NCBI GenBank assembly: GCA_025360565.1
Contig: JANYBY010000061.1
Span: 1-45,140, forward strand
Origin: Bacteroidota bacterium
Lineage (GTDB): Bacteria; Bacteroidota; Bacteroidia; B-17B0; Aurantibacillaceae
Length of the DNA: 45,140 bases
Reading direction: 5' to 3'
Below, piece by piece: positions 9,826 through 11,927 of this stretch. The translations under genes and the position numbers were made by a program. Position 1 is the first letter of the stretch. The number at the start of each line of letters is the position of its first letter. The notes under the pieces are model-generated. The model was not told the origin of the DNA. It did not search any database and saw only the letters and a program-made list of their open reading frames with translations.

Positions 9826-10689
9826 ATGAGACAGCTTAAAATAACCAAATCGATAACCAACCGCGAAAGTGCTTCATTAGATAAATATCTTCAGGAAATT
9901 GGACGTGAGGAACTTATAACGGCCGAAGAAGAGGTAGTTTTAGCAAAAAAAATTAAAGATGGCGATCAATCTGCCCTAGAAAAATTAACCCGCGCTAATC
10001 TGCGTTTTGTGGTTTCGGTGGCAAAGCAATATCAAAATCAGGGTTTAAGTTTACCCGATCTTATTAACGAAGGAAATTTAGGTTTGATAAAAGCGGCAAA
10101 ACGTTTTGATGAGACCCGTGGATTTAAATTTATTTCTTATGCAGTATGGTGGATCCGTCAAAGTATTTTACAAGCTTTGGCTGAACAAAGCCGTATTGTG
10201 CGTTTACCTTTAAATCAAGTTGGTTCATTAAATAAAATAAATAAAGCTTACAGTAAATTGGAGCAGGAATTTGAGCGCGAGCCAAGTGCCGAAGAGTTAG
10301 CCGATATTTTAGATCTGCCTATAGATAAAGTTAGCGATACCATGAAAGTGAGCGGACGCCATGTAAGTATGGATGCCCCATTTGCAAATGGTGAAGAAAG
10401 TAGTTTATTGGATGTGTTGGTAAATTTAGATTCGCCTAAAGCCGATACAGGTTTAATGAACGAAAGTTTAAGCAAAGAAATTGACCGCGCATTAAGCACA
10501 TTAACCGAAAGAGAACGCGACGTAGTAAAATTATTTTTCGGAATTGGATTGAACCACGGTTTAACCTTAGAAGAAATTGGCGATAAATTTGATCTTACCC
10601 GCGAACGTGTACGTCAGATAAAAGAAAAAGCGATCCGTCGTTTACGCCACAGTAGCAGAAGCAAATTATTACAACAATATTTGGGCTAA
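9826..10689 (+). CDS. rpoD: Primary (housekeeping) RNA polymerase sigma factor, sigma-70 family
   Basis: A 287-residue sigma factor that brings RNA polymerase to housekeeping promoters. It begins [20 protein letters not shown], then region 1.2 ([19 protein letters not shown]), region 2 ([53 protein letters not shown]), region 3 ([20 protein letters not shown]) and region 4.2 with the -35-binding helix-turn-helix ([20 protein letters not shown]). Region 1.1 and the non-conserved insert of E. coli RpoD are absent, as is normal for Bacteroidota primary sigma factors, and the length fits that group. It is monocistronic, with a terminator just behind. Confidence 0.97.
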
Positions 10690-10716: not shown

Positions 10717-10752
10717 GGACTTGAACCCTCACAGAAATGCTGAGGGTTTTTT
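10717..10752. repeat. Direct repeat copy 1 (36 bp), tRNA T-arm-like on minus
   Basis: Identical over 36 nt to 10869-10904. Read on the minus strand it holds GAGGG-TTCAAGT-CCTTC, a complete tRNA-type T-arm (T-loop consensus TTCRANN; stem paired with one G-U). On the plus strand the same bases form a terminator. The flank 10703-10717 holds a small CTTCCC-AAA-GGGAAG hairpin. Confidence 0.75.
10724..10752 (+). terminator. Rho-independent terminator of rpoD, copy 1
   Basis: AACCCTCA (10724-10731) pairs with TGAGGGTT (10741-10748) around a 9-nt loop and is followed by a T-run to 10752. It is 35 nt after the rpoD stop. Confidence 0.85.
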
Positions 10753-10770
10753 GTTGTAGAAAAATCGGTA

Positions 10771-10816
10771 AAACCATCAAGGTTTTTCCAGACATAAATG
10801 AAAACCTTGAAGGTTT
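10771..10816. repeat. Inverted repeat AAACCATCAAGGTTTT / AAAACCTTGAAGGTTT
   Basis: Two 16-nt arms (10771-10786 and 10801-10816) are reverse complements with one mismatch, about 14 nt apart. This palindrome sits between the two copies of the terminator repeat and resembles short intergenic repeats common in Bacteroidota. Confidence 0.6.
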
Positions 10817-10868
10817 AAATGTGTTCATTGCTCACTATTGTTCCTGATCTGCCGCAGCGGAGAGGGGG

Positions 10869-10904
10869 GGACTTGAACCCTCACAGAAATGCTGAGGGTT
10901 TTTT
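10869..10904. repeat. Direct repeat copy 2, joined to a tRNA-Ser 3'-end-like sequence on minus
   Basis: Second copy of the 36-bp repeat, 152 nt after the first. On the minus strand the T-arm-like part (GAGGG-TTCAAGT-CCCCC) continues into CCTCTCC then G (about 10868-10857), which matches the acceptor 3' strand and discriminator base usual for tRNA-Ser. No matching 5' half (GGAGAGG, D-arm, anticodon) is present upstream, so this is a fragment and not a gene. Confidence 0.6.
10876..10904 (+). terminator. Rho-independent terminator, copy 2
   Basis: Same hairpin as copy 1: AACCCTCA (10876-10883) with TGAGGGTT (10893-10900) and a T-run to 10904. No gene ends between the copies, so it acts, if at all, as a back-up behind rpoD. 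Confidence 0.75.
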
Positions 10905-10973
10905 ATTTGTTGAAAAGTCTCGTTTGATAGAAGGTGGATTTAGGGTGAGGCTGCTTAACTTTACGCACTTAAA

Positions 10974-11927
10974 ATGAAATGGGTTAAAATAATAATTGCT
11001 GTCATAATTTCGATCGCCCTCGGATTGATCTTTTTGTACTCCGGATACAGCAAACTAACTCCGGTAATTGAAACCTTTGAATTTACATTCGTTGATGTTG
11101 GCATTGCCAACTGGTACACCGCGCCTGTTATTGCAAGGCTTTTGATCGGGCTCGAATTTTTTCTTGGATTTTTACTGATCATTAATTATAACCTCCGCAA
11201 ATTTGTTCTGCCTTTCACCATTAATTTATTATTGTTCTTTATTATTTATTTATTGATCCAGATCGCAGGCAATGGTAACACCGGCAATTGCGGATGCTTT
11301 GGCGAGCACGTAAGGATGACACCTTTAGAAGCGATCTTAAAGAACATGGCAATGATAGTTGCAGGCGGCGTGGTTTATTTTTTATTTGAAGGCTGGAAAG
11401 TGAAATACAATAAACTGTTTTTGAGTTTTATTTTTGTAAGTACGGTAGCGCTTCCGTTCATCTTTAATCCTATTGATTACGCTTACACATCAAACAATCT
11501 CGAAGAAAAAATAAACTATCCCTTAGAGCTTAATTTGCTTTACTCGCCTGAAGATACCTCGAAGGTGCAGGTGCCCAAGATTGATCTTAGAAAAGGAAAA
11601 CATGTGGTGGCATTTTTAAGTTTAAGCTGTCCGCATTGCCGCATTGCCGCAAAAAAATTCAGACTTATTAAAAAGGGCAACCCTAACATTTCTGTTTATT
11701 TTATTTTAAACGGTGATAGAGAAAAGTACGCGCCTTTTATTTTAGATACAAAAGCGGATAACATACCTTATTCGTATTGCAACGGCAAAACGTTTGTGCA
11801 GCTGGCTTCGGCACAATTGCCACGAATTTATTATTTAGATAATGGAGTAGTTGTAAAAAAAGTGGACTACTATGAATTGAATCAATACAGAATAGAAGAC
11901 TGGATGAAAACCGGTAAGCCTAATTAA
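10974..11927 (+). CDS. MauE/DoxX-like membrane protein fused to a thioredoxin-like domain
   Basis: A 317-residue protein. Residues 1-150 hold four membrane helices of the DoxX/MauE family (IISIALGLIFLYSGYSKLTP; GLEFFLGFLL), with the loop NTGNCGCFGEHVRMTPLEA that is typical of MauE-like proteins; a fifth helix is near 150-165. Residues about 205-317 look like a thioredoxin fold with CPHC (FLSLSCPHCRIAAKKF), the same redox motif length as DsbA. MauE helps form disulfides in methylamine dehydrogenase; in Bacteroidota such fusions are common and their substrates unknown. A weak -7 box (TAACTTTA, 10956-10963) lies 10 nt before the ATG. It converges with tamB, 4 nt apart. Confidence 0.88.
   Translation: MKWVKIIIAVIISIALGLIFLYSGYSKLTPVIETFEFTFVDVGIANWYTAPVIARLLIGLEFFLGFLLIINYNLRKFVLPFTINLLLFFIIYLLIQIAGNGNTGNCGCFGEHVRMTPLEAILKNMAMIVAGGVVYFLFEGWKVKYNKLFLSFIFVSTVALPFIFNPIDYAYTSNNLEEKINYPLELNLLYSPEDTSKVQVPKIDLRKGKHVVAFLSLSCPHCRIAAKKFRLIKKGNPNISVYFILNGDREKYAPFILDTKADNIPYSYCNGKTFVQLASAQLPRIYYLDNGVVVKKVDYYELNQYRIEDWMKTGKPN

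Follow-up and report, generated by a model that had tools for sequence, protein, structure and literature searches.

The window, that is, the whole 45,140-nucleotide stretch of DNA analysed here (contig JANYBY010000061.1 of assembly GCA_025360565.1), belongs to the draft genome of a Bacteroidota bacterium (3.6 Mb in 433 contigs, 91.6% complete) and carries the gene of the primary (housekeeping) sigma factor, rpoD, followed on the same strand by the gene of a MauE/DoxX-type membrane protein (table 1). Orthologues of rpoD were found in 36 of the 37 same-genus genomes searched, and the MauE/DoxX-type gene adjoins rpoD in 13 of the 29 same-genus loci read. Between the two genes lie two copies of a 36-nt sequence, a dispersed palindromic repeat that overlaps the first copy, and a second, unrelated palindrome that separates the copies.

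Table 1. Features of the region comprising rpoD and its 3′ neighbour (positions in the window).
Feature	Position	Strand	Remarks
rpoD, primary (housekeeping) sigma factor	9826..10689	+	Pfam Sigma70_r1_2, r2, r3, r4
Dispersed palindromic repeat GCCCTTCCTAAATCTTCCCAAAGGGAAGGACTTGAA	10690..10725	+	begins immediately 3′ of the rpoD stop codon
Copy 1 of the 36-nt sequence	10717..10752	+	repeat end, inherited rpoD terminator hairpin, T tract
Second, unrelated palindrome AAACCATCAAGGTTTT / AAAACCTTGAAGGTTT	10771..10816		between the copies; fold z -5.3
14 nt unique to copy 2	10855..10868	-	minus strand CCCCCTCTCCGCTG; read as T-stem 3′ strand, acceptor strand and discriminator
Copy 2 of the 36-nt sequence	10869..10904	+	apparently duplicated terminator hairpin, T tract; probable back-up terminator
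MauE/DoxX-type membrane protein gene	10974..11927	+	3′ neighbour of the pair; co-directional with rpoD

Direct reading of the 36-nt sequence, GGACTTGAACCCTCACAGAAATGCTGAGGGTTTTTT, bears out the original prediction of an identical pair 152 nt apart behind rpoD, and the likeness of the copies reaches 45 nt at 93%. Matches of this kind were absent from shuffled windows, the chance expectation in the window being zero. The search for further copies that had been proposed with the prediction returned no third one in the 3.6 Mb of the genome at up to three mismatches, and a gapped search of the contigs for 36-mer-like patterns gave nothing. A large family of identical 36-mers was rejected, the genome having two only.

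On the plus strand, both copies contain the hairpin CCCTCACA-GAAA-TGcTGAGGG, with one bulged C, followed by T6. The hairpin alone folds at about -14 kcal/mol, with z values of -1.6 to -2.8 that vary with the stretch folded, so that the intrinsic terminators proposed for this strand are also predicted by folding: in each copy, a stable G+C-rich hairpin located 3′ of a gene is followed at once by a U tract. A simple terminator scanner called neither copy, presumably because it allows no bulge. In 29 same-genus genomes, the sequence 3′ of rpoD (about 330 nt each, judged by eye) has either a single hairpin that resembles a terminator or no obvious one, and in no case a second terminator copy; the CAGAAATG loop is common to six of these 29 rpoD terminators (e.g. 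AAACCCTCTTCAGAAATGTGGAGGGTTTTTTGTTGG in genome G012). The presence of at most one terminator behind rpoD in the relatives, in several of them with the CAGAAATG loop, identifies the hairpin of copy 1 as the inherited rpoD terminator. Copy 2 is probably a back-up terminator in tandem with copy 1, a termination activity that is predicted from the hairpin and T tract. The pair resembles known tandem intrinsic (rho-independent) terminators in consisting of two successive units of G+C-rich hairpin and T tract immediately 3′ of a gene, but differs from them in that exactly the same 36 nt are shared, including DNA that does not belong to the terminator, and in the one bulged base of the stem. As a tandem pair of terminators behind rpoD, the arrangement is mostly ordinary.

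The repeat that precedes the hairpin of copy 1 is found in about ten copies in the same genome, and those located elsewhere have no tRNA context. The sequence CTTCCCAAAGGGAAGGACTTG occurs seven times in this genome (at up to three mismatches) versus zero in the reversed control, and a longer form, GCCC(A/T)TCCTAAATC(C)TTCCCAAAGGGAAGGACTTGAA, is 91-97% identical to other contigs of the genome. The family can be written as CCTAAATCC-arm-NNN-arm′-GGACTT; of 150 relatives from across the class, 31 contain it, and the controls gave no match. The two arms are complementary at all six bases in 41 of the 52 distinct cores, compared with a mean of 7.9 and a maximum of 18 after shuffling. A long upstream open reading frame has its stop codon 9-12 nt 5′ of the core in 10 of 37 repeat copies; the copy behind rpoD, with the stop codon 9 nt 5′ of the core, is one of these 10. 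Further copies were noted at loci L085, L086, L133, L196 and L197-L227, of which some have an additional hairpin and are enclosed by an outer inverted repeat resembling GAGGC/GCCTC. Just 5′ of the MauE/DoxX-type gene, at window positions 10936-10952, stands GGATTTAGGGTGAGGCT, the outer part of the repeat in inverted orientation, which matches two other contigs at 17 of 17 positions.

With the REP and BIME-type intergenic palindromes, which bear a terminal GTAG or CGTC tag (PMC3733652), the family shares short palindromes that are dispersed between genes, with arms that vary and remain complementary, as is also true of the part of copy 1 that precedes the hairpin, and sometimes two hairpins per unit (loci L210, L213, L218 and L227). 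Unlike them, it has no consistent GTAG/CGTC tag, its borders being CCTAAATCC...GGACTT instead, and strongly prefers to begin at stop codons. Indeed, the tag is missing from the repeat part of copy 1, GTAG being absent at rpoD, and GTAG is found directly 5′ of only 4 of the 37 listed repeat copies (L086, L212, L213 and L219), within a TAG triplet. The papers available for searching contained no account of precisely this repeat. The class-wide repeat could be an mRNA 3′-end element or a mobile repeat that targets gene ends.

On the minus strand, copy 1 imitates a tRNA T-arm, GAGGG-TTCAAGT-CCTTC. Its 'T-loop', GGACTTGAA, is the end of the dispersed palindromic repeat, here CCTAAATC-arm-AAA-arm′-GGACTTGAA, and this end, together with the hairpin start CCCTC, mimics the T-arm on the opposite strand. 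The same fusion, GGACTTGAACCCTC, was found on an unrelated Bacteroidetes MAG contig, CAIOTH010000042, within a two-hairpin version of the repeat (locus L227), with no tRNA nearby in the 8-kb locus. Thus, the repeat alone can yield a convincing T-arm imitation. In addition, the sequence of copy 1 does not continue into the T-stem and acceptor of a tRNA gene or pseudogene, the dispersed repeat standing in that place, and copy 1 is not among the matches to tRNA 3′ ends at up to 7 mismatches of 27 in the 710 kb scanned. The identity of GGACTTGAA as a repeat end, and its fusion to the same hairpin start in L227 where there is no tRNA, show that copy 1 is not tRNA-derived. The absence of a 5′ tRNA half, noted at the outset, was borne out, since ARAGORN found no tRNA gene in the region and Rfam gave no tRNA match even at E≤5; these negative results rule out a whole tRNA, functional or degenerate.

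The minus strand of copy 2 is GAGGG-TTCAAGT-CCCCC-CCTCTCC-G, in which the T-stem contains a single A-C mismatch, so that the T-loop with its stem and the CCTCTCC-G continuation are there as originally described. The 14 nt just 5′ of the 36-mer, CAGCGGAGAGGGGG, agree at 14 of 14 positions with the acceptor end of a tRNA-Ser gene at locus L036, in another family of the same class. When CAGCGGAGAGGGGG was aligned head to head with its candidate sources, 33 copies of the repeat and 24 genes for tRNA-Ser, the 14/14 match to tRNA-Ser was equalled by none of 200 shuffles, and the best match to the dispersed repeat, of 9 nt, was attained by 13 of 200; these tests were post hoc, being run when the likeness was already known. 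A background scan of 47 tRNA 3′ 27-mers against both strands of 710 kb of the 3.6-Mb genome gave three non-tRNA sites with up to 6 mismatches, namely a tRNA-Met end (2 mismatches), copy 2 (4 mismatches, to tRNA-Ser) and a tRNA-Leu 3′ half (6 mismatches), the other non-tRNA matches starting at about 7. Almost all of the 4 mismatches in 27 of copy 2 to tRNA-Ser genes fall within the shared 36-mer, and the part unique to copy 2 is clean. A blind BLAST search of all plasmids with the region as query yielded a single weak match (E 0.9), which is a Nostoc tRNA-Ser gene.

The assembly itself lacks a tRNA-Ser with CCTCTCCGC at its acceptor end, and such a gene was found in only one other of 36 same-genus genomes. 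The tRNA-Ser(GCT) of the genome has the acceptor GGTGAGA and the T-loop TTCGAAT, and all T-loops seen in tRNA-Ser of the genus read TTCGAAT, none TTCAAGT. Thus, of the comparison with the genome's own tRNA-Ser genes that had been suggested, the acceptor match failed in the assembly, and a full 14-nt match was obtained in L036. Many tRNA genes, however, are lacking from a draft of this completeness; the 14-nt fragment would have to derive from an unassembled tRNA-Ser of the same genome or from another lineage. Since the tests were post hoc and GGAGAGGG also serves as an arm of the dispersed repeat in this genome, the view that the 14 nt are a scrap of a tRNA-Ser 3′ end, joined to the terminator at T-loop microhomology, is held with somewhat better than even confidence, and is likelier than an origin from a degenerate repeat arm. 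Of the proposal that tRNA-derived sequence was combined with a terminator, the part concerning copy 1 has to be given up in favour of the dispersed repeat, and the part concerning copy 2, where the likeness exceeds the background, stands as the better reading.

The two other outliers of the scan are of interest in their own right. L131 (G000:C236, 3010-3423) comprises, in this order, a tRNA-Met gene, an 88-aa GIY-YIG open reading frame (PF01541, 3e-15) and a 27-nt near-copy (25/27) of the tRNA-Met T-arm and acceptor, which together are likely a tRNA-targeting GIY-YIG cassette. At L130 (G000:C420, about 400-470), a tRNA-Leu is represented by its 3′ half alone, starting with the anticodon loop and lacking the 5′ half; nearby are open reading frames resembling an HNH protein, for which no Pfam match was obtained, and a phage lysozyme. 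This half-tRNA probably marks one boundary of an integrated phage-like element.

Taken as a whole, the locus is read, at a little above even confidence, as an inherited terminator next to a repeat, 36 nt of which were duplicated, with copy 2 joined to a tRNA-Ser scrap. The palindromic repeat would have come to sit between the rpoD stop codon and the terminator hairpin, and the fused 36-nt repeat-terminator junction would later have given rise to a second copy 152 nt farther 3′. There, the T-loop-like GGACTTGAACCC would have become the seam between the 36 nt and roughly 14 nt from the 3′ end of a tRNA-Ser, through recombination or template switching at the GGACTTGAACCC microhomology, of which template switching would be the simplest route. 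The two hairpins may now terminate transcription in tandem in the interval that separates rpoD from the MauE/DoxX-type gene. Neither of the two copies is itself a tRNA, and the locus shows no demonstrable insertion or excision of an element.

Two other accounts of copy 2 have to be weighed. One, put forward tentatively, takes it as an accidental tRNA-terminator chimera, now a back-up terminator, for which a tRNA-Ser gene, perhaps of a different Bacteroidota lineage, supplied the microhomology through its T-loop. According to the other, which is possible and rather doubtful, both copies are repeat plus terminator, the stretch before the hairpin of copy 2 representing a degenerate form of the right arm (GGAGAGGG, its run of Gs expanded) and its likeness to tRNA-Ser coincidental. 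Variants with the arm GGAGAGGGACTT do exist in the genome, GCGGAGAGGACTT is present in one relative (G123), the sequence upstream of copy 2, TTCCTGATCT, weakly resembles the TTCCTAAATCT of copy 1 (p about 0.03), and the stretch upstream of copy 2 can fold on itself. However, the left arm is missing, four extra Gs would be required, copy 2 does not lie behind a stop codon, and the shuffling comparison given above favours tRNA-Ser. The dispersed repeat as the sole source of both copies is thus unsupported for copy 2 by the alignment and by the scan of tRNA ends.

The original prediction also considered that an element had integrated at a tRNA-Ser 3′ end and had then been almost wholly excised, leaving two attachment cores. 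The resemblance of copy 2 to tRNA-Ser, and the occurrence in the same genome of duplicated tRNA 3′ ends beside mobile-looking genes (the tRNA-Met with GIY-YIG and the tRNA-Leu 3′ half), speak for such an event, which is nevertheless very improbable, since the core of copy 1 is repeat plus rpoD terminator rather than tRNA, and the spacer has no genes and carries another dispersed palindrome. This palindrome, of the AACCTTGAAGGTT type, is strong and unlike the repeat of copy 1, with similar copies in contig C25 and in the same-genus locus L037. Neither an integrase nor any other element gene lies between the copies, an intact tRNA-Ser partner is absent, and no element or integrase is found near the copies; the same-genus loci, inspected for an element between the copies as had been proposed, show none, with at most one terminator and no insert after rpoD (n=29). 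Nor was such an element found in relatives, viral contigs, phages or plasmids: no phage or viral contig was found to carry the sequence, and matches in the phage collection were at chance level (E 0.03-0.09). With attachment-site remnants at tRNA 3′ ends (attR), copy 2 shares a T-loop-like stretch, a tRNA-Ser acceptor strand and the discriminator, but only about 14 nt of it are convincingly tRNA, and intact tRNA partner, integrase and element are all lacking. Integration and excision are therefore unneeded to explain the locus and unsupported by positive evidence. Less likely still is an assembly artefact, in which the metagenome assembler would have joined two contigs at the 36-nt repeat and so created the second copy; the draft is highly fragmented and the junction lies in repeat-rich intergenic DNA, but both flanks belong together, since rpoD and the MauE/DoxX-type gene adjoin in the 13 same-genus loci mentioned above.

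A word of caution follows for tRNA-like sequences of this kind, as the end of a palindrome widespread in Bacteroidota, GGACTTGAA, imitates a tRNA T-arm when it stands beside a CCCTC terminator. If the scrap at copy 2 is truly tRNA-derived, it shows a T-loop acting as a recombination junction. The dispersed palindrome, which in many genomes of this class is often located right at a stop codon, merits more attention than the likeness to tRNA.
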